Source: Brevibacterium ihuae
Lineage (GTDB): Bacteria > Actinomycetota > Actinomycetes > Actinomycetales > Brevibacteriaceae
DNA: 64,000 nucleotides
Direction: 5' to 3'
Assembly: GCF_900184225.1 (NCBI RefSeq)
Contig: NZ_FXWZ01000003.1
Span: forward strand, 1,863,684 to 1,927,683
In this document: positions 6,078 to 37,319 of the stretch, piece by piece
Position numbering within the stretch: the first letter of the stretch is position 1
How the letters are laid out: each line of letters opens with the position of its first letter
Made by a program: the position numbers and the translations under genes
The notes under the pieces: generated by a model
Databases searched by the model: none
Told to the model about the DNA's origin: nothing
The model's input: only the letters and a program-made list of their open reading frames with translations

Positions 6078-6950
6078 TCACCTCAGAACCCGCGGCTCGA
6101 CGGGCAGCCGACCGATCCGCTTCATCAGACCGTAGGCGGCCGTCGACACGACCAGGCCGACGAGCAGGAGGACCGTCCCGGCGGCCGTGTTGTAGGCCTC
6201 GGCGGTCTGCGGACGCGTGGCGAGGAGAGCGAGCACCACCCACGGTGCGGTGACGGCGAGGCGTGCACCGGTGACCGTCCAGCTCTGCCGGGCCTGGAGT
6301 TCGGCGCGGGTCCGCGAATCGTCGCGGATGAACTGGCTCAGCGTCTTGAGCATCATCCCGAGGTCCGTGCCGCCGACCTCGCGGGTGACCGCCAGTGCGG
6401 CGACGATCTTGTCTGCGACGGGGTCGGCCGCTGCGATCTTGAACCGCTCGAGCGAGAGGGAGAAGGAGCCGGTGGCCCGGTACTCCTGGGCGAACACGGT
6501 GAAGAGAGGGCGGAGCTGCTCCGGTCCGCGCGCACTGAGCCCGCTGATCGCCTCCGGCAGCGAGAGCCCGGCACGGATGCCGGAGTGGAGATGGTCGATC
6601 GACTCCGGCCACAGGGTGCGCCGTTCGACCTGCCGGGATCTCGCGCGGTGCCGCACGAACGCGATCGGGGCGAGTGCTGCGAACAGTGCGAAGCAGCCGC
6701 TGATGCTCGTCGCACCGGTGAAGAGCATCGCGATGAGGAACGCGGCTCCCGCCGCTGCAGCGCTGATGACGGCGAGATGAGCAGGCGACGTCCGGGGGAA
6801 CCCGGCCATGGTGAGGGCTTCGTCGAGTTCGACGATGAACCGCGGGCGGGGTCGTGTGCGACGCGGGGTCTCCCACATCGACCACCAGATGAGGAAAGCG
6901 CCGCACCCGAGCCCGAGGCCGCACAGAGCGCCCGCCAGCGATGTGCTCAT
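6078..6950 (-). CDS. tadB: TadB, type II secretion F-family inner-membrane protein
   Basis: A 290-residue protein with an N-terminal helix (GALCGLGLGCGAFLIWW), paired helices near residues 60-100, a cytoplasmic T2SSF domain (SGIRAGLSLPEAISGLSARG, then REVGGTDLGMMLKTLSQF) and two C-terminal helices. It is the partner of TadC in the pilus platform. The chosen ATG at 6950 overlaps the tadA stop as ATGA; a longer in-frame extension upstream lies wholly inside tadA and is rejected. It is expressed from the tadA promoter. Confidence 0.9.
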   Translation of the reverse strand: MSTSLAGALCGLGLGCGAFLIWWSMWETPRRTRPRPRFIVELDEALTMAGFPRTSPAHLAVISAAAAGAAFLIAMLFTGATSISGCFALFAALAPIAFVRHRARSRQVERRTLWPESIDHLHSGIRAGLSLPEAISGLSARGPEQLRPLFTVFAQEYRATGSFSLSLERFKIAAADPVADKIVAALAVTREVGGTDLGMMLKTLSQFIRDDSRTRAELQARQSWTVTGARLAVTAPWVVLALLATRPQTAEAYNTAAGTVLLLVGLVVSTAAYGLMKRIGRLPVEPRVLR

Positions 6951-8173
6951 GCGGCCTCCAGGATCGCGTGGATGTCCTTGCCGATCGCGGCGAAGCGCTC
7001 GCCGAGGTGGGTGAATCCCGCGCCGCGGGTGAGAGTGCCGTCCGGGCCGGTCTGGAACACGGTCTCGAGCTCGACGATGCCGCCTTCGAGACCACCGGGG
7101 ATCGCGGCGATCTCCTCGACCCGTCGCTGTCCGTCGCGATCGAGCCGGAGGTGCACGATGAGGTCGATGCTGCCGGCGACGGTCGGAGTGACGAAGGTCG
7201 ACCCGATGTTCGGCCCGGCGAGGAGCGGGAGGGTGCACAGCTTGGTGACGGCCGAGCGCGCTGAGTTCGCATGGATCGACCCGAGGCCCGGCAGGCCGCT
7301 GTTCATCGCGACGAGGAGGTCGAAGCACTCGGCCTCGCGGACCTCGCCGACGATGAGTCGGCTCGGCCGCATGCGCAGCGCCTCCTTGACGAGCTGCCGG
7401 AGTGTGATCTCACCGGTGCCTTCGAGCGAGGGCTGGCGGCACTGCATCGCCACCCAGTCACGCGCAGGTACGGTGAGCTCGAACACCTCTTCGCAGGTGA
7501 TGACGCGCTCGCGTGCAGGGATCGACCCGGTGAGGGCGTTGAGCATGGTCGTCTTGCCGGCCTGGGTCGCTCCGGAGACCACGATGTTCGCACCGGCGAT
7601 GACGGCTGCATCGAGGAAGATTGCGGCCTTCTCCGGCAGGGTGCCGTTGGCAACGAGGTCGCGCAGGCTCCGGGTGCGGGTGATGAACTTGCGGATGTTG
7701 ACCGCCGGATGGGCGCGGGTGATGTCCGGGAGAACGACGTGGAGGCGCGAGCCGTCGGGCAGGGTCGCGTCGACGAACGGGCTCGACAGGTCCACGCGCC
7801 TGCCCGAGGTGCGGAGCATCCGCTCGATGAGGTCGGAGACCTCGTCGGCGGTGAGCAGGGTGGGGGTGAGCTCGCTGATGCCGCGGCGACTGATGAAGAC
7901 GCCCTGGGGTGCATTGATCCAGATCTCCTCGACCTCGGGGTCGTCGAGGTACTTCTGCAGTGCGCCGAAGCCCGACACCTCGTCGAGGATCCGCCGGCCG
8001 GTCGCCTCCGGGTCCGCCAGCAGGGGGAGTGAGCCGGCGAGGGTGCGCTCGTCGTAGTCGTGGATCACCTGGAGGACGAGCTCCCGGGCCTGGGCGGGTT
8101 CCGTGCGCGGATCGATCCCGCGGGTCCGGATGAGTTCTCGGACCTCGGCGGCGATGAGCTCGGCTGCGTCCAT
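6947..8173 (-). CDS. tadA: TadA, CpaF-family pilus assembly ATPase
   Basis: A 408-residue cytoplasmic secretion ATPase. It has Walker A GATQAGKTTML, an Asp-box-like region (TCEEVFEL), Walker-B-like LIVGEVREAECFDLL and a His-box-like GLGSIHANSARSA, the usual GspE/CpaF set. It powers Flp pilus extension with TadB and TadC. ATG at 8173 has AGGA about 7 nt upstream and gives the normal N-terminus (MDAAELIAAEV). A 34-residue longer start at 8275 lacks such support. It is the first gene of the operon. No tadZ/ssd gene precedes it: the upstream 500 bp is noncoding and the next gene is divergent. Confidence 0.92.
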   Translation of the reverse strand: MDAAELIAAEVRELIRTRGIDPRTEPAQARELVLQVIHDYDERTLAGSLPLLADPEATGRRILDEVSGFGALQKYLDDPEVEEIWINAPQGVFISRRGISELTPTLLTADEVSDLIERMLRTSGRRVDLSSPFVDATLPDGSRLHVVLPDITRAHPAVNIRKFITRTRSLRDLVANGTLPEKAAIFLDAAVIAGANIVVSGATQAGKTTMLNALTGSIPARERVITCEEVFELTVPARDWVAMQCRQPSLEGTGEITLRQLVKEALRMRPSRLIVGEVREAECFDLLVAMNSGLPGLGSIHANSARSAVTKLCTLPLLAGPNIGSTFVTPTVAGSIDLIVHLRLDRDGQRRVEEIAAIPGGLEGGIVELETVFQTGPDGTLTRGAGFTHLGERFAAIGKDIHAILEAA

Positions 8174-24213: not shown

Positions 24214-24586
24214 GGGGATGATCGGTTTCGACGTCGGACATGGCGTCGGGAGAAGCGGGCCGAGAATGCAGAGTCAACTCGTTAATGTCCTCTGCAAAAC
24301 AATAGGTGCTAAATCCAATAACCGCACCGATTTCGCCCTCGCCGCCTGATAGCGCGAGCTGCGAATCCGTCAGCCTAGAGTTGCTTCCGCTCTAGCTCCT
24401 GGCGTCAGCAAGGAAGCCACTGCTGCCGGTACATGTTGGGGGTGCCGGCGGGACTCTTACTCAACTCCGTTCGTTGGATCACGTGTTCGTGCGATGACCA
24501 GGACCTAAGAAGCTGCTTCACGAACTGCGCCCGGAGAAGACCCGGTAAAATGCTGACGGACGCGGGTTCGATTCCCGCCATCTCCA
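24214..24586 (+). ncRNA. ssrA: transfer-messenger RNA
   Basis: The RNA begins GGGGATGATCGGTTTCGAC, the tmRNA 5' consensus. The first seven bases pair with CATCTCC at 24579-24585, with A24586 as discriminator. The tag frame 24308-24349 encodes AKSNNRTDFALAA then TGA, an actinobacterial-type degradation tag. A T-arm-like GGGTTCGATTCCC is near the 3' end. The encoded bases after the discriminator are CGC, so the CCA tail is apparently added after transcription. A 13-bp terminator hairpin follows. The 3' end is the integration site of the adjacent island. Confidence 0.97.
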
Positions 24587-24631
24587 CGCTAGAGCCTCGG
24601 AATCCTTAGTGATTCCGGGGCTCTTCCGCTT
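24569..24631. repeat. attL: left direct repeat of the ssrA-integrated island
   Basis: A 63-bp segment covers the last 18 nt of tmRNA and its terminator. It is repeated at 34077-34139 with three mismatches (24589, 24608, 24610). The island therefore duplicated the ssrA 3' end and terminator, keeping tmRNA functional. Confidence 0.93.
24592..24626 (+). terminator. ssrA terminator
   Basis: A 13-bp stem (24592-24604 with 24611-24623, one T-G wobble), loop CTTAGT, followed by TT. The same hairpin recurs inside attR. Confidence 0.75.
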
Positions 24632-24767: not shown

Positions 24768-25988
24768 ATGCCGAAGAAGTATTCCGATCTGCCCCGCGGG
24801 ATCGACCGGCTGCACAACGGGCAGTACCGCGCCCGGATCTACACCCAGGGGCGCCGGCACACCATCGGCTCCTTCTTCACCATCGGAGACGCCCGCGCCG
24901 CCCTCAGCATCGCCCGCGGAGAGATCGCCCGCGGCATCTTCATCCCGCCCGCCGAAGCTCGAGCAGAGCGCCGCCGCGCAGCAGATGAGAAGGCCAAGTC
25001 CGCGGTCACTATCGACACCCTCGCCGACGAGTGGTTCACCTTCCTTGAGCGCGCCGGCCGGAGCCGAGGCACGATCTACACCTACCAGTCCCGCTACAAC
25101 AGCCACATTCGCCCCGTGTTCGGAGAAGTCCCGGCCACCGTCGTCACCCCCGCCGAGGTCGAGGACTGGTATTCGGATCTGCTGCGGGAGAAGGGCTCCG
25201 GTGTCGCCCGGAACGTCTACCTCACCCTGTCGGCTCTCTTCACCTACGCGACCGGGAAGGCCAAGGGCCAGTCCGCGACCTTCACCCCATTGATCTCGGA
25301 GAACCCGTGCGGTGTGCCCGGTGCGACGAAGCACCAGCCGAAGCACCACCACGACGACGGGGAGAAGGTCGCCACCCCCGAGCAGGTCGCCGCCCTCGTC
25401 AGCAACATGCCGCCCCGCTACGCGCTGGCGGTGAACCTCGCCGCGTGGTCGGCGCTGCGCCTCGGAGAAGTCATCGCCCTGCGCCGCCGCGACATATCCA
25501 CAGCTGTGGACGGCACTCTCTGGATCCGCATCGTTCGGCAGGTCCAAGCGAGGGGGAGCGGCCTGTATGAGACCCGCCCGAAGTCCGATGCTGGCACCCG
25601 CTCCGTGCCGATCCCGCCGGCCCTCACCGAGACGGTGAACGATCACCTCCGGGAGCACGTCGGGCGAAAACGCGACATGCTGCTCTTCCCGCGCACCCCG
25701 AAGGGCGACGACTGGATCCACCCGAACACCCTGCGCAACGCCTTCAATGCCGCGGTGGAGACATACAACGACAGTGCTGACCCGGACGACCGGCTCGACG
25801 GGTTCACCTTCCACGCGCTCCGGCACACGGCGCTCACGCGCATCGGGCAGGCGGGGGCGACTCTCGAGGAGCTCAAGCGATTCGCCGGCCACACCTCCGC
25901 CGAGGTGGTGGCGAAGTACCAGCACGCGACCCGCGACCGGCTGGCGATGCTCGCGAGCTCCCTGTCGAGCGAAGTGCGGAACTTGTGA
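24768..25988 (+). CDS. tyrosine site-specific integrase
   Basis: A 406-residue protein. It has an N-terminal arm-binding-like part (RLHNGQYRARIYTQGRRHTI), a SAM-like core-binding domain near residues 80-170, and a catalytic domain with Arg in SALRLGEVIALRR, His-x-x-Arg in FHALRHTALTRIG, His in FAGHTSAEV and nucleophile Tyr in VAKYQHATRDR: a complete active site. GGAGGGGGA before ATG 24768 marks the start; longer in-frame starts run back into the attL repeat. It catalyses insertion at the ssrA 3' end, 137 bp away. Confidence 0.93.
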   Translation: MPKKYSDLPRGIDRLHNGQYRARIYTQGRRHTIGSFFTIGDARAALSIARGEIARGIFIPPAEARAERRRAADEKAKSAVTIDTLADEWFTFLERAGRSRGTIYTYQSRYNSHIRPVFGEVPATVVTPAEVEDWYSDLLREKGSGVARNVYLTLSALFTYATGKAKGQSATFTPLISENPCGVPGATKHQPKHHHDDGEKVATPEQVAALVSNMPPRYALAVNLAAWSALRLGEVIALRRRDISTAVDGTLWIRIVRQVQARGSGLYETRPKSDAGTRSVPIPPALTETVNDHLREHVGRKRDMLLFPRTPKGDDWIHPNTLRNAFNAAVETYNDSADPDDRLDGFTFHALRHTALTRIGQAGATLEELKRFAGHTSAEVVAKYQHATRDRLAMLASSLSSEVRNL

Positions 25989-26155: not shown

Positions 26156-26210
26156 CCCAGCCTGGCGAGATGTCGGGGGGTATACCCAGCCGAGTTTCGC
26201 ACACGGGGGG
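26156..26210 (+). repeat. repeat unit 1: two 25/26-bp repeats, 4-nt spacer
   Basis: Copy A (26156-26180) reads CCCAGCCTG, core GCGAGAT, GTCGGGGGG. After TATA, copy B (26185-26210) reads CCCAGCCGA, core GTTTCGC, ACACGGGGGG. The copies are 29 bp apart. Cores A and B can pair with each other (two G-T wobbles), with inner TCGG/CCGA and GGG/CCC pairs around TATA, so the unit could fold as one long imperfect hairpin. Confidence 0.7.
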
Positions 26211-26293
26211 CTGTGTCAGATGGTTCGCCGTCGACACTGCACTACCGGCCCAGGATCCACGTCTGGAAGGAGAAGCAACCGACACCTGCAACG

Positions 26294-26347
26294 CTCAGCC
26301 TGTCGGCATGACGGGGAGCTGACCCAGCCTGATCTCGCGTCGGGGGG
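26294..26347 (+). repeat. repeat unit 2: two 25-bp repeats, 4-nt spacer
   Basis: Copy C (26294-26318) reads CTCAGCCTG, core TCGGCAT, GACGGGGAG. After CTGA, copy D (26323-26347) reads CCCAGCCTG, core ATCTCGC, GTCGGGGGG. Spacing C to D is again 29 bp and the unit lies 138 bp after unit 1. Core D is the exact reverse complement of core A while both flanks are identical. Confidence 0.7.
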
Positions 26348-26458
26348 ACCGTCCGAGGGTACGCCCCCCGGCGCAGACACCGGCTAGTTAACCGATCCAT
26401 TCCGACCGCGAAGCTACCTTCTGGCGCAGATACCGAATTCTTCACCGACCTCACCTAG

Positions 26459-27398
26459 GGCGTGTCTGACAATGATGTGGTTCGCTGGCTGAGAGCCTGG
26501 GAGCATGTCGAGATTCCAACTGCTCACGGATGCTCAATGGTCTCTGATCGCTGACTTGCTGCCTGCTCCGACCGGCCGCAGGGGCCGGCCCTTCGCTGAT
26601 GCCCGCCAGATGGTCGAGGGCATCATCTACCGCTACCGGTGCGGGATCGCCTGGCGGGATCTGCCCGAGACGTTCGGCAAGTGGCAGACGGTATGGACCT
26701 GGCATCGCCGGATGGCCGACGACGGCACCTGGGACACCGCGCTGGCCCGCTTGGCCGCTCACGCTGACGCGGCCGGCCAGCTCGACTGGTCGCTGTCGGT
26801 GGACTCCACGATCGCGCGTGCTCATCAACACGCAACGAACATCACGCGCCTAAAAAAGGGACTCGTCGAACTACACGAATCCGGACGTCGAGCCGCCTGA
26901 CCACGCGCTGGGCCGGTCCCGGGGTGGGCTGTCGACGAAGACCCATCAGCTCGTCGACGGCCACGGACTGCCGTTGGTCACCGTGTGCACCGCCGGCCAG
27001 GACGGCGACTGCCCGATGCTCATCCCGCTCATGGATCAGCTGCGGGTCCAGCGCCCCGGACTCGGTAGCGCCCGCACCCGGCCGACAGCACTGCTGGGCG
27101 ATAAGGCGTACTCCTCGCGGGCCAATCGTGCCTACCTGCGCAGCCGCCGGATTGAAGCAGTCATCCCCGAGCCGAACGATCAACAGGGCCACCGCAAGCG
27201 CCGCGGCTCCAAGGGCGGCAGGCCGCCGAAGTTCGACGCCGAGAAGTACCGGGGCAGGAACGTCATCGAGCGCGGCTACAGCCGCCTGAAGCAGTGGCGG
27301 GCCCTGGCCACCCGCTACGACAAACTCGCCATCGTCTACCGCGCAGCAGTCGTGCTCAATGCGGCTATTGCGTGGCTACACCATTTATCGGACACGCC
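26459..27398 (+). mobile_element. IS5-family (IS427-like group) insertion sequence
   Basis: A 940-bp element with imperfect inverted ends: GGCGTGTCTGACAA on the left, and on the right the complement of GGCGTGTCCGATAA. It is flanked by a 4-bp CTAG target duplication (26455-26458 and 27399-27402). Two overlapping transposase frames span it. Intact ends and duplication suggest a fairly recent insertion into the island. Confidence 0.9.
26505..26900 (+). CDS. IS5-family transposase, first frame (N-terminal part)
   Basis: 131 residues. LTDAQWSLIADLLP and GIAWRDLPETFGKWQTVWTW are the DUF4096-type N-terminus of these transposases, and SVDSTIARAHQHA supplies the first catalytic Asp. The frame shifts at the A6 run (26852-26857) after NITRLK; beyond this point the residues no longer look like transposase. 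Production of the full enzyme needs a +1 shift or loss of one A by slippage. Confidence 0.88.
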   Translation: MSRFQLLTDAQWSLIADLLPAPTGRRGRPFADARQMVEGIIYRYRCGIAWRDLPETFGKWQTVWTWHRRMADDGTWDTALARLAAHADAAGQLDWSLSVDSTIARAHQHATNITRLKKGLVELHESGRRAA

Positions 27399-27402
27399 CT
27401 AG
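26854..27402 (+). CDS. IS5-family transposase, second frame (C-terminal part)
   Basis: Open from just after TAA 26851-26853. It reads NPDVEPPDHALGRSRGGLST, then LLGDKAYSSRANR with the second Asp, and VIERGYSRLKQWRALATRYD with the Glu, completing a DDE triad. It lies in the +1 frame relative to the first part and has no strong start, so it is made as a frameshift fusion. Its TAG stop (27400-27402) is supplied by the CTAG target duplication outside the IS end. Confidence 0.85.
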   Translation, partial: KRDSSNYTNPDVEPPDHALGRSRGGLSTKTHQLVDGHGLPLVTVCTAGQDGDCPMLIPLMDQLRVQRPGLGSARTRPTALLGDKAYSSRANRAYLRSRRIEAVIPEPNDQQGHRKRRGSKGGRPPKFDAEKYRGRNVIERGYSRLKQWRALATRYDKLAIVYRAAVVLNAAIAWLHHLSDTP

Positions 27403-27407
27403 AAGTC

Positions 27408-27432
27408 ATGCCCCTTCACCGGGGCATTTTTT
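27408..27432 (+). terminator. intrinsic terminator 1 upstream of the excisionase gene
   Basis: Stem ATGCCCC/GGGGCAT, loop TTCACC, then six T. It is a textbook factor-independent terminator just right of the IS. Confidence 0.85.
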
Positions 27433-27460
27433 ATGCCCAAAATCCATAGTCCAACCACCC

Positions 27461-27489
27461 AACCCCGACTCACACAGTCGGGGTTTTTT
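27461..27489 (+). terminator. intrinsic terminator 2 upstream of the excisionase gene
   Basis: Stem AACCCCGACT/AGTCGGGGTT, loop CACAC, with the stem running into a T-run that ends at 27489. It lies 27 bp before the start of the excisionase-like gene and would block read-through from integrase or IS. Confidence 0.88.
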
Positions 27490-27515
27490 CATGCCCAAAT
27501 CCGAAAGGAGCACCC

Positions 27516-27734
27516 ATGCCGACCAAGATCACGCCCGAGCTCACCATCGCTCAGGCAGCAGAAATCACCGGCACCTCAGCACCGACCATCCGCCGGTGGA
27601 TCTCCAACGGGGAGTTGCGAGCCTACCGATACGGAAAGCGCGTCATCCGCATCGCCTACGACGATCTGATGAAGCTCCGCCGCGAGGTCAACCCGACCAC
27701 CTTCACCAAGCAGAACGGCGGTGACTCTGCGTGA
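27516..27734 (+). CDS. excisionase-like MerR-type HTH protein
   Basis: 72 residues. LTIAQAAEITGTSAPTIRRW and SNGELRAYRYGKRVIRIAYD are the signature of the small excisionase/HTH_17 family. It probably binds the attachment arms and biases the integrase to excision, or regulates the module. GAAAGGAG lies before ATG 27516. It ends in a 4-bp overlap with the next gene, starting a run of overlapping genes up to 30654. Confidence 0.8.
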   Translation: MPTKITPELTIAQAAEITGTSAPTIRRWISNGELRAYRYGKRVIRIAYDDLMKLRREVNPTTFTKQNGGDSA

Positions 27735-28027: not shown

Positions 28028-28299
28028 GCAGGACATTCGACACCGAAGAAGCCCGCCGACTTTACGACATCGCCTACTCGACCGGCTACCGGCACGGAGA
28101 GCAGCAGGCCCGCCTCACCGACACCAGCTTCATCGAGGCCGTGGCGAGGCAGGTCCGGGCCGGCGAATACCTTGAAGGGCAGATCAGCGCCGTCATCCGT
28201 GGCACCATCGACGGGCTCAATGCCCGCGCCGCCCGCGAGAAGATGACCGCCGAGGCCGAGGCACGCGGTGACTCCCGGAATCGGGGTGAGCGCCGATGA
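28024..28299 (+). CDS. hypothetical island protein
   Basis: 91 residues, GTG start in a 4-bp overlap. It is mostly helical and charged: TEEARRLYDIAYSTGYRHGE, then GLNARAAREKMTAEAEARGD. No family recognised. It is coupled to the ATPase gene downstream by another 4-bp overlap, so a helper role in the same process is possible. Confidence 0.6.
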   Translation: MSRTFDTEEARRLYDIAYSTGYRHGEQQARLTDTSFIEAVARQVRAGEYLEGQISAVIRGTIDGLNARAAREKMTAEAEARGDSRNRGERR

Positions 28300-29585
28300 G
28301 CGAAGTGTTCAACTACTCACCCGAGGAACTGGTGGATCTCCCCAGGCCGCAGCGCCGGGCTCAGATCACTTGGGCATCGGAGATCGAGCCTGAGCCGGTC
28401 GTGTGGGCGTGGGAGGACAACGGCGAGGGACGCATCCCTTCCGGTTCGCTCTCCGTCGCCGCCGGCAGGGAAGGGACCGGGAAGTCCTCGTTCGGGATCT
28501 GGTTGGCCGCTCAGATCGCTGCGGGGGCTCTCCCCGGATCGTTCCACGCACAGCCGCGTCGCGTGTTCTACGTCGCGGTCGAGGATTCGTGGAAGCACAC
28601 CCTCGTCCCTCGGCTCATCGCCGCCGGCGCGGACCGCAGCATGGTCGGCAGGTTCGAAGTCGTCAACGACATCGACGAGCAGGTCGAGATGTCGCTGCCC
28701 GCGGACAACAATCTGCTCGAGGAAGCGATCGTGCAGAACGATGTCGGCCTCGTCGTCATCGACCCGCTCATGTCGGTCATCGGTGCGAGGATCGACACCC
28801 ACCGTGAAAGGGAGGTCCGCACGGCACTGGATCCCCTCGCACGGATCGCGGATCGAACCGGTGCAGTCGTCCTGGGGATCGCGCATTTCAACAAGTCTTC
28901 CAGCGGAGATCCTGCCTCGCTCATCACCGGATCCGGTGCGTTCAAGAACGTGCCGCGCTCGGTGTTCGGGTTCGCTCGTGACGAGGACGATGAGAACGGC
29001 GGGCGGATCCTCTCGCAGGTGAAGAACAGCCTCGGGCGCGACGATCTGCCGAACCTCGCCTACCGGATCGACAGCGCGCTCGTGGAGACTCCGAAGGGGC
29101 CTGCGGTCACCGGACGGTTCACCCTGCTCGGTGAGTCCGACAAATCGGTCTCCGATGTTCTACGAGCCGGGTTCAGCGGCGACGCCGAGGACCGGAACGA
29201 GGCTCAGCAGTTCGTCCTCGACTACCTGCTCGAGCGCACCCCGCCGGAAGCTCCTGCCGGCGACGTACTCAAAGCGGGACGCGCAGCGGGATTCTCCGAT
29301 CAGTCATCGAAGGATGCTCGCCGCCGGTCCAAGAACCCCAGGATCCTCTCCGCGAAGTCCGATTTCGGGGGCGGCTGGGTCTGGCAGGTCAGCACTCAAG
29401 GTGGCACCGAAGGTAGCGAAGGTGTCAGGGATCAGGACTCTGCGACCACCGCCACCTACGCGCCACCTTCACCCGACCCCGCACCCCAGAAGCAGGGGCG
29501 GGACACCACCTGCGCCGCCTGCGGCAACGTCCTCCACCAAGGCTCCTGCGTCCGCTGTCAGGTCGAGGGGAGGCGATCAGCATGA
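28296..29585 (+). CDS. RepA-like AAA ATPase (RecA fold)
   Basis: A 429-residue protein. Walker A AAGREGTGKSS lies near residue 60 and Walker B VGLVVIDPLMSVIG near 150; GSGAFKNVPRSVFGFARDED matches the RepA/DnaB-like group found in plasmids, phages and satellites. A winged-helix-like part follows (GDVLKAGRAAGFSDQSSKDA). The C-terminus carries a small zinc ribbon, CAACGN then CVRCQ. It probably acts in replication or copy control of the excised element. No separate primase or origin is recognised nearby. Confidence 0.82.
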   Translation: MSEVFNYSPEELVDLPRPQRRAQITWASEIEPEPVVWAWEDNGEGRIPSGSLSVAAGREGTGKSSFGIWLAAQIAAGALPGSFHAQPRRVFYVAVEDSWKHTLVPRLIAAGADRSMVGRFEVVNDIDEQVEMSLPADNNLLEEAIVQNDVGLVVIDPLMSVIGARIDTHREREVRTALDPLARIADRTGAVVLGIAHFNKSSSGDPASLITGSGAFKNVPRSVFGFARDEDDENGGRILSQVKNSLGRDDLPNLAYRIDSALVETPKGPAVTGRFTLLGESDKSVSDVLRAGFSGDAEDRNEAQQFVLDYLLERTPPEAPAGDVLKAGRAAGFSDQSSKDARRRSKNPRILSAKSDFGGGWVWQVSTQGGTEGSEGVRDQDSATTATYAPPSPDPAPQKQGRDTTCAACGNVLHQGSCVRCQVEGRRSA

Positions 29586-34076: not shown

Positions 34077-34139
34077 CGATTCCCGCCATCTCCACGTTAG
34101 AGCCTCGGAATCCTTTGCGATTCCGGGGCTCTTCCGCTT
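34077..34139. repeat. attR: right direct repeat of the ssrA-integrated island
   Basis: 63 bp matching attL with three substitutions (34097, 34116, 34118). It keeps the last bases of tmRNA and the terminator hairpin (34100-34134). Sequence upstream of the repeat differs from ssrA, which fixes the island boundary. Confidence 0.93.
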
Positions 34140-35456: not shown

Positions 35457-37319
35457 TCAGCGTGCTGGCTGATCAATTCGGTTATCTGTGCCGTTCTGGA
35501 GTTCGACACCCTCGAACTGAGAGGAATCCTCCGTTGCTTCACCTCGATCGAGATCTCGGGGAACTGACTTGCCCATCGCGTTCTCCACCAATACGCATAG
35601 AGCCTCAAGCCGGGCGGCGAAGAAGCCGTCGAAGTCATCGGCGCGCAATGCTTCACTGGGCACCAAGTGCGAAGCGACGAGTCCGTCAACCTGCTTGCTG
35701 GGGATCTGCGCTTTGTGCTCGATCGCTTGTAGGTACTGCGAGGGTGCCGCACCTCCAATAGTGCGATTCGTCACGGCTGAAATCGCTGTCTTATTGACGA
35801 TGCTCTCACGGTGCTCGTCGTCAATGCCGTTCATGTTGCACCACTTCTGCGGGAAGATGTGGTGGATATCAACCGCGAGGCTGGCGTACTGGGCCTTATC
35901 CAGTTGGAGATCTTGCATCCAGTCGCGGGCGCCGTTGTTGAGGATCAGCGCATAGATGCCCTTGTAGGCAGCGGCATTCCGGGTGCGCAAAGAGAGTAGG
36001 CGAGACTCAACGAAAGTAGCGTCGTTGATGGTGTTCGGAGTCTGAGCACCTGCTCGGCCAAGCGCCCAATCCGGCACCTGCTCCAGATCGCGCACGAAAC
36101 GAGTTTCGATGGCGCTGCCGTAAAGCTCGCCGAGTATTCCGCACCAGAACCAACGTACTAACCGCGCTCTGGGTCCGACCAGATCTGCATCTCTGCCCAT
36201 CACAACCTTGAGTACCGCTAGCGGCACCAGTTGCTTCGGGTACGGCAGGAAACGGCTATCAAAGATGTGGAGATCGGCCAAGAAGTTCGACGCCCACGCG
36301 AATGCCTCACGCAGGGGACCGACCCATTCAAGGTAGTCGCTCAATGTGAGCTTCAATACATCTTCTCGCTTGGCGCTAGTAGCCGGACGCCTCGATCCGC
36401 TGCTGGTGAGATTGCGCTTGCGAGTGGCCAGCAACGTCACAGCTTGAAGTAGGTCAGTGCTCTCCAAGTGACTCAGAGCTGGGTACGCAGAGAACGCTTT
36501 CTGCGCGTGCTCCCAATCCTCATTGAGGCGGAAGTCTGTTCCATGCTTATCGAAGTATTCTTTGTCGCCCGCGAACGTTGCGGTAAGGAGTTCGAACACG
36601 TTCAAGGCGAGGCCGCCCGTGTTGACCTTCTCGAACACCGTCGCCACGGCTGCCTTACTTGTCTGATTGTCGAGTTCAATGGCTGGGATGTTATAGGTGT
36701 TCGCGGGTGCAATGACGTCGGCCATGAAACGCGACAACATGTGGATGTCACCCAGTTCTGCGAGCCACAGCGAAGCGTTCATCTGATCGTAGAGGAGTCG
36801 CAAGGGAAATAGCTTGTGTGCTCGTTCCTTTTCCGGCGTCGACACATCGAGGACGATATCCTTGCCGAAGTTCTTGCGCTCCAGGCCATCGCCGGGAACC
36901 GACCGAACCGCTTCCTCCATCCATTCCTCGCCTTGCAGGGCAAGATCCATATCCACGTAATAGCGACGCTGCAACCGCTTCCCACGGGCGTCCATGGTGT
37001 TTACCACACCCTCGCCCGTGAGCGCCTGGGTAAGGGATGTCAGTCGTTGTTGGCCATCGAGAAGAAGTGAATCGATCTGGGCGTCAGCTGGAACATTCGT
37101 GCCCTCAACCGGTCGGGGCTTGAAGCGAATTTGATCGTTCCCCGTCTTGAGAAGCATCACCACTCCGAGCGGATGGCCCCTGAGGATCGTGACAAGCAAT
37201 TGGCGAATGCGTTCGTCTTCCCACTTGTAACTCCGCTGGAAGTCGGGAAGTTGGATCTTCCCGTTCGTGGTCCATTTCAAATAGTCGCTCAGCTCGTACA
37301 GAGGTGTTTGAAAGCCCAT
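35457..37319 (-). CDS. DUF262/DUF1524 protein, GmrSD-like (type IV restriction family)
   Basis: A 620-residue protein. The N-terminal DUF262 domain has LPDFQRSYKWEDERIRQLL and the nucleotide-site motif LLLDGQQRLTSLTQAL near residue 87. The C-terminal DUF1524 HNH-type nuclease has VDIHHIFPQKWCNMNGI near residue 485. This pairing defines GmrSD-like proteins, several of which restrict DNA with modified bases using NTP hydrolysis; others act with DNA-modification defence. It stands alone, without a methylase. The gene is visibly less GC-rich than its surroundings, a sign of transfer. It is outside the ssrA island, divergent from the peptide-import cluster. Confidence 0.85.
   Translation of the reverse strand: MGFQTPLYELSDYLKWTTNGKIQLPDFQRSYKWEDERIRQLLVTILRGHPLGVVMLLKTGNDQIRFKPRPVEGTNVPADAQIDSLLLDGQQRLTSLTQALTGEGVVNTMDARGKRLQRRYYVDMDLALQGEEWMEEAVRSVPGDGLERKNFGKDIVLDVSTPEKERAHKLFPLRLLYDQMNASLWLAELGDIHMLSRFMADVIAPANTYNIPAIELDNQTSKAAVATVFEKVNTGGLALNVFELLTATFAGDKEYFDKHGTDFRLNEDWEHAQKAFSAYPALSHLESTDLLQAVTLLATRKRNLTSSGSRRPATSAKREDVLKLTLSDYLEWVGPLREAFAWASNFLADLHIFDSRFLPYPKQLVPLAVLKVVMGRDADLVGPRARLVRWFWCGILGELYGSAIETRFVRDLEQVPDWALGRAGAQTPNTINDATFVESRLLSLRTRNAAAYKGIYALILNNGARDWMQDLQLDKAQYASLAVDIHHIFPQKWCNMNGIDDEHRESIVNKTAISAVTNRTIGGAAPSQYLQAIEHKAQIPSKQVDGLVASHLVPSEALRADDFDGFFAARLEALCVLVENAMGKSVPRDLDRGEATEDSSQFEGVELQNGTDNRIDQPAR

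Follow-up and report, generated by a model that had tools for sequence, protein, structure and literature searches.

In the satellites P4 and phiR73, immunity RNAs present short complementary segments in the leader of the replication genes, and no tandem bulged hairpins are described there. To our knowledge, the silencing of excision and replication genes in actinobacterial satellites is largely unexplored. The HK022 put RNA needs no protein partner and works through the beta-prime zinc-binding domain of RNA polymerase. It is ~70 nt in length and consists of two tandem bulged stem-loops, placed ahead of terminators in the leader from which a mobile element expresses its early genes (PMC9378689). 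ANTAR dual hairpins (EutV, AmiR, NasR) are small hairpins that stand in tandem and are recognised two at a time, within a leader that also contains an intrinsic terminator; their stems are 3 bp long, and their loops are hexanucleotides whose first base is A and whose fourth is G (PMC3369931). In the integrative element Tn916, the cis-acting non-coding RNA canT enables passage through terminators, thereby switching on the replication and transfer genes (PMC11658703). Finally, the Vibrio satellite PLE has a non-coding region whose direct repeats, semi-palindromic in sequence, are the iterons of its replication origin (PMC7145576).

Here we describe a locus within a 64,000-nt stretch of an actinobacterial genome (the whole stretch analysed, hereafter the window) in which four repeats, arranged as two tandem pairs, are most likely copies of a single AG-bulged RNA hairpin with a 5-nt loop. 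As in HK022 put, each pair (54–55 nt here) holds two bulged stem-loops and is followed by terminators, so that at the level of layout and predicted folding the put arrangement of two tandem stem-loops in a leader before terminators recurs. The stems are shorter than in put, the linker is 4 nt, there are two pairs of nearly identical hairpins, the host is actinobacterial, and no sequence similarity to put was recognised. Compared with ANTAR targets, the stems are 9 bp and bulged and the loops (GAGAU, UUCGC, GGCAU, CUCGC) have 5 nt; they do not follow the ANTAR loop rule, and membership in that group was rejected. Tn916 canT would do a similar job with another structure: it is 452 nt long with complex predicted folds, no tandem identical hairpins are reported for it (PMC11658703), and its carrier is a Gram-positive conjugative element, not a satellite. 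PLE differs in that its iterons are DNA sites for a RepA_N initiator, with inverted sub-repeats converging on a poly-A tract that is absent here. Across Rfam 15, no family reached its gathering score in the repeat zone (CRISPR-DR23, at 17.2 bits against a cut-off of 45, is a chance-level match). The hairpins thus resemble HK022 put or ANTAR dual hairpins and belong to neither, as judged for put by layout and predicted folding.

A satellite-like island in the tmRNA gene

The repeats lie in an island of ~9.5 kb, placed in the 3′ end of ssrA because the attL repeat, comprising the last ~20 tmRNA bases and the sequence after them, recurs as attR (Table 1). Further island products include a HIRAN protein and an NYN protein. 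By its sequence, the island is a small mobile satellite-like element integrated in the tmRNA gene. Its best integrase relatives come from the same genus (Brevibacterium), Brevibacterium sp. 239c being among them; no close relative of the integrase was found in viral contigs, and no DNA similarity was found in phages or plasmids. A related element of the same genus, L016, carries an HK97-type phage capsid gene (6908-7753) near an integrase and a helicase related to those of the island; L016 is possibly a capsid-encoding phage satellite, and this neighbouring capsid gene suggests phage-satellite ancestry. Between the repeats and xis sits an IS5-family insertion with the target duplication CTAG at 26455-26458 and 27399-27402. 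The end of this insertion element recurs elsewhere in the genome (G000:C3:486468-486516).

Table 1 Features of the island and the int-xis interval (window coordinates)
Feature	Position	Strand	Remarks
tmRNA	24214-24587		ARAGORN
attL	24569-24631	+	tmRNA 3′ end, 63 bp; 95% identical to 34077-34139
Tyrosine integrase gene (int)	24768-25988	+	
Hairpin copy A	26156-26180	+	CCC-AG-CCUGGC-(GAGAU)-GUCGGG-GGG
Hairpin copy B	26185-26210	+	26 bp, diverged; extra G in right arm, loop UUCGC, one A.A stem mismatch
Non-coding block CGGCCCAGGATCCACGTCTGGA	26246-26267	+	20/22 identical to related Brevibacterium element L005; best of 15 shuffles 17
Hairpin copy C	26294-26318	+	Loop GGCAU; C-to-U and G-to-A compensate in outer stem
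Hairpin copy D	26323-26347	+	Loop CUCGC
Weaker inverted repeat copy	26364-26388	-	4/18 mismatches
IS5-family insertion	26459-27398	+	DUF4096 + DDE transposase, two frames; boundaries by eye
Intrinsic terminator T1	27408-27427	+	3′ half and tail match L005 terminator 18/22
Intrinsic terminator T2	27461-27485	+	Stem ends 30 bases before xis start codon
xis	27516-27734	+	72-aa HTH_17 / MerR-like excisionase-type regulator
AAA_25 helicase-type replication protein	28296-29585	+	
attR	34077-34139	+	Right end of ~9.5-kb island; repeat of attL

Four repeats with compensatory changes

The repeats occupy a stretch of ~470 bp between the integrase stop and the IS5-family insertion, which we regard as non-coding because no reading frame is conserved between the repeat zone and a related element; this agrees with the first-pass annotation, which had called the zone non-coding and the repeats not those of a protein. 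That annotation had also described four copies of 25/26 bp in two pairs, with 4-nt spacers (TATA, CTGA), a step of 29 bp and 138 bp between pairs, all of which we recovered exactly. The repeats are real and far beyond chance: allowing up to three mismatches, the flanks matched three times in the stretch, where 2000 dinucleotide-shuffled versions of it gave 0.0005 matches on average, and in the 3.1-Mb genome the exact matches A and D are the sole two, C being among the three-mismatch matches. The description of the flanks as nearly constant holds for A and D, which fit the consensus exactly, and for C (3/18 mismatches); it fails for B (6/18), the outlier, whose right arm has 10 nt. Two features had been overlooked, namely the weaker inverted copy, an arm of which can, by inspection, pair with the right arm of D into a competing hairpin, and the mutual complementarity of the left and right flanks.

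Because the flanks are complementary, each repeat is better pictured not as a swapped 7-bp core within constant flanks but as a hairpin, CCC-[AG bulge]-CCUGNN-(5-nt loop)-NNCGGG-GGG, in which the "core" amounts to two closing pairs plus the 5-nt loop. When each copy was folded alone, the minimum-energy structure of the + strand had 3 pairs, the AG bulge, 6 pairs and a 5-nt loop in 4/4 copies, with one mismatch and an extra bulge in copy B; the - strand folds of the four copies had no common structure. Aligning the cores and arms for covariation, as had been suggested, revealed changes that compensate inside each copy. Across the four paralogous copies of this one genome, which form the covariation sample, 35/36 pairs are standard in a gap-free alignment (preferred to the MAFFT alignment, in which copy B is counted one column short); in four pairs both sides have changed, and one stem pair appears as A-U, G-C, G-U and U-A. 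Shuffles matched the paired fraction in 1/500 cases and the covariation score in 3/500, and sliding the partner by 1–3 columns brought pairing to ~53–61%. Re-dealing the right arms among copies never exceeded the true count of 35 (next best distinct deal, 32), and swapping those of A and D left it unchanged, the two arms being identical. The opposite strand keeps 30/36 pairs, the drop arising because five pairs are of the G-U type. The simplest reading of this pattern is that selection acts on a + strand RNA hairpin, which the compensatory changes and the strand preference favour over DNA sites or core inversion; the hairpins may instead form in single-stranded DNA.

Folding energies were unremarkable for single hairpins (z -0.2 to -1.5), and the 231-nt region folds no better than shuffles (z = 0.0). 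In pair 1, A and B can instead join in one long hairpin of greater stability than the local ones (-26.1 vs -18.4 kcal/mol; z = -2.9 for its 65-nt segment). At the predicted equilibrium A and B prefer this one long hairpin and D lacks its own, the downstream C-rich sequence being predicted to be able to capture D. Since only 14/21 A-B pairs survive in C-D, the local hairpins are taken as the feature common to the copies, and the long hairpin was rejected as a conserved structure; conceivably, the RNA might switch from one of these folds to the other. The first-pass idea of a structured RNA with long-range pairing therefore stands as regards RNA structure, which the within-copy compensation favours, and yields to local hairpins as regards long-range pairing between cores.

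Terminators ahead of xis

T1 and T2 lie >1 kb downstream of the hairpins, from which the IS5-family insertion now separates them (~0.1 kb without it), and have no arm in common with them. The 30 bases from the T2 stem to the xis start are partly T-tract and ribosome-binding site, a distance that leaves almost no room for a promoter before xis; no sigma-70-type promoter was found upstream. Since T1 and T2 precede xis, transcription into the xis and replication genes must cross them, barring an unseen promoter. A terminator-like hairpin is also present just before xis in L005/L014 (two designations of the same locus) and in L016, and in another related element, L015, a strong hairpin without a T-tract precedes the xis position. 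At 27408-27500, nearly the same sequence follows T1 and T2 (TTTTTTATGCCCAAAATCC, TTTTTTCATGCCCAAATCC), as if one terminator had been copied. In T1, back-pairing between the tail and the 3′ arm of the same terminator is possible.

Relatives of the int-xis interval

A covariance model of the hairpin pair, run on 396 genomes of the order, found nothing beyond the window (78 and 76 bits there; next best 27) and no match in the related loci. Junctions resembling those of the pairs turned up at chance level only, both in viral contigs and in 57 genomes of the genus. The int-xis zone of the window is nonetheless homologous and collinear with that of L005 (local score 100; shuffles 48, sd 7.9, maximum 83). 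Recurrence of the repeats in related islands, a check raised in the first-pass annotation, goes no further than a diverged counterpart of copy C, which local alignment places in the homologous zone of L005 (GCTTAGCGTCGGAGTGCGGGTAGC); L005 lacks the hairpin descriptor. A UNCG-hairpin module common to the window and L005 was also considered and dropped, as the shared blocks besides 26246-26267 and T1 were singly no better than shuffles, large parts of the string occur commonly in coding DNA of high GC content, and its 57-nt segment in the window is less stable when folded than shuffled sequence (z = +1.2).

Other relatives carry different material at this position. The second half of the L016 interval is common to L014 and different from that of the window, and the L016 interval as a whole (1870-2579, genome G040) contains 7 TCCACA/TGTGGA DnaA-box cores against 0.54 expected, a count reached by 0/500 shuffles; the density is 9.9 per kb inside the interval and 0.7 outside. 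From this clustering, the interval is probably the replication origin of that element. The L015 interval (1859-2441) has two perfect TTATCCACA boxes. Judging from these sequences, the int-xis interval of this family seems to be modular: the window and L005 have in common a non-coding unit that ends in a terminator, and L005, L015 and L016 have one that is origin-like. At 128-503 of L015 there is a second, distinct element at the tmRNA gene, in another species of the genus.

Candidate role and alternative explanations

Tandem hairpins before terminators, loops that depart from the ANTAR rule and the lack of an Rfam match lead us to propose a cis-acting leader RNA. Our leading reading, tentative and somewhat short of probable, is that an untranslated + strand leader RNA acts in cis to set read-through into xis and the replication genes; we infer both the transcription of the repeat stretch and the control of its read-through. 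Such an RNA would be made between int and xis of an excisable, replicating satellite-type element, its hairpins would fold on the nascent transcript and be bound by RNA polymerase or a protein, and the bound hairpins would decide whether transcription gets past T1 and T2 to reach xis and the replication genes. Terminators before xis in three related elements, together with a covarying hairpin array in one, point to control at transcription elongation, which would resemble HK022 and Tn916. A more specific proposal, which we consider rather unlikely, is that phage satellites of actinobacteria use a class of processive antiterminator RNA that is new, made of duplicated bulged-hairpin pairs that modify RNA polymerase in cis; expression of the excision and replication genes beyond the two terminators would then depend on transcription having started at the right promoter. 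Should RNA polymerase be the sole partner of the RNA, the antiterminator would be protein-free and would come from a new lineage.

An unlikely but serious competitor places function in the DNA: the repeats would be double-stranded iterons, recognised by a dimeric regulator or by an initiator of replication, in an int-xis zone that serves as the origin, and the inverted arms would reflect semi-palindromic sites. The same interval is origin-like in L016 (7 DnaA-box cores) and L015 (both TTATCCACA boxes), the island has a helicase-type replication protein, and PLE replicates from semi-palindromic iterons in its non-coding region (PMC7145576). Against this, the window zone has no DnaA-box core and no clearly AT-rich stretch near the repeats, the 60-nt windows that span them being mostly at least 60% GC; the 2-nt bulge breaks the symmetry, and the five G-U/U-G stem pairs are not palindromic in DNA. 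The first-pass suggestion of sites for a dimeric regulator or initiator thus keeps some standing, but leaves the wobble changes and the compensation within each copy, which DNA sites do not require, without explanation. That compensation also bears on whether the repeats are leftovers without function, produced by two duplications of a hairpin in an island that is decaying and has had its regulatory zone broken by an IS: the adjacent insertion and the lack of relatives with the repeats would fit, yet copies that have diverged so much while keeping 35/36 pairs are unexpected without selection, which makes this account improbable.

The complementarity among cores invites two other explanations. 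As the first-pass annotation had noted, the D core (ATCTCGC) reads exactly as the reverse complement of the A core (GCGAGAT), and the B core pairs with the A core at 7/7 positions, two of them wobbles. In a P4-type antisense immunity system, the loop and core of A (or C) would pair with B or D, either within one transcript or between two, so that the xis-replication leader terminates prematurely. At 7/7 positions A can pair with B as well as with D; C reaches 5/7 with each of them, and A with C only 2/7. Terminators lie downstream, and the satellites P4 and phiR73 are reported to have RNAs complementary to their leaders (PMC7567579). Some of the complementarity is nevertheless a consequence of the hairpins standing in tandem, only ~3 loop-loop pairs fit the exclusive 5-nt loops, and no separate small-RNA promoter was found; we consider such a system quite improbable. 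Inversion of the 7-bp core by a recombinase, put forward on the strength of the exact A/D relation between identical flanks, is very improbable, since a reversed core between flanks of unchanged orientation is not a product of ordinary site-specific recombination, and cores B and C are wholly different sequences. With flanks that pair with each other and a "core" that is mostly loop, the A/D relation is one of loop and closing-pair sequence, inversion is unneeded, and no second orientation was found. Integrase arm-type sites were likewise rejected, as the repeats are ~1.5 kb from attL, beyond the integrase gene and not beside the att core.

Surroundings of the island

Just outside attR, in a low-GC stretch, a 620-aa protein is encoded on the - strand (35457-37319). 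It matches several PADLOC candidate defence families and SspE-like proteins (best 3.6e-20).
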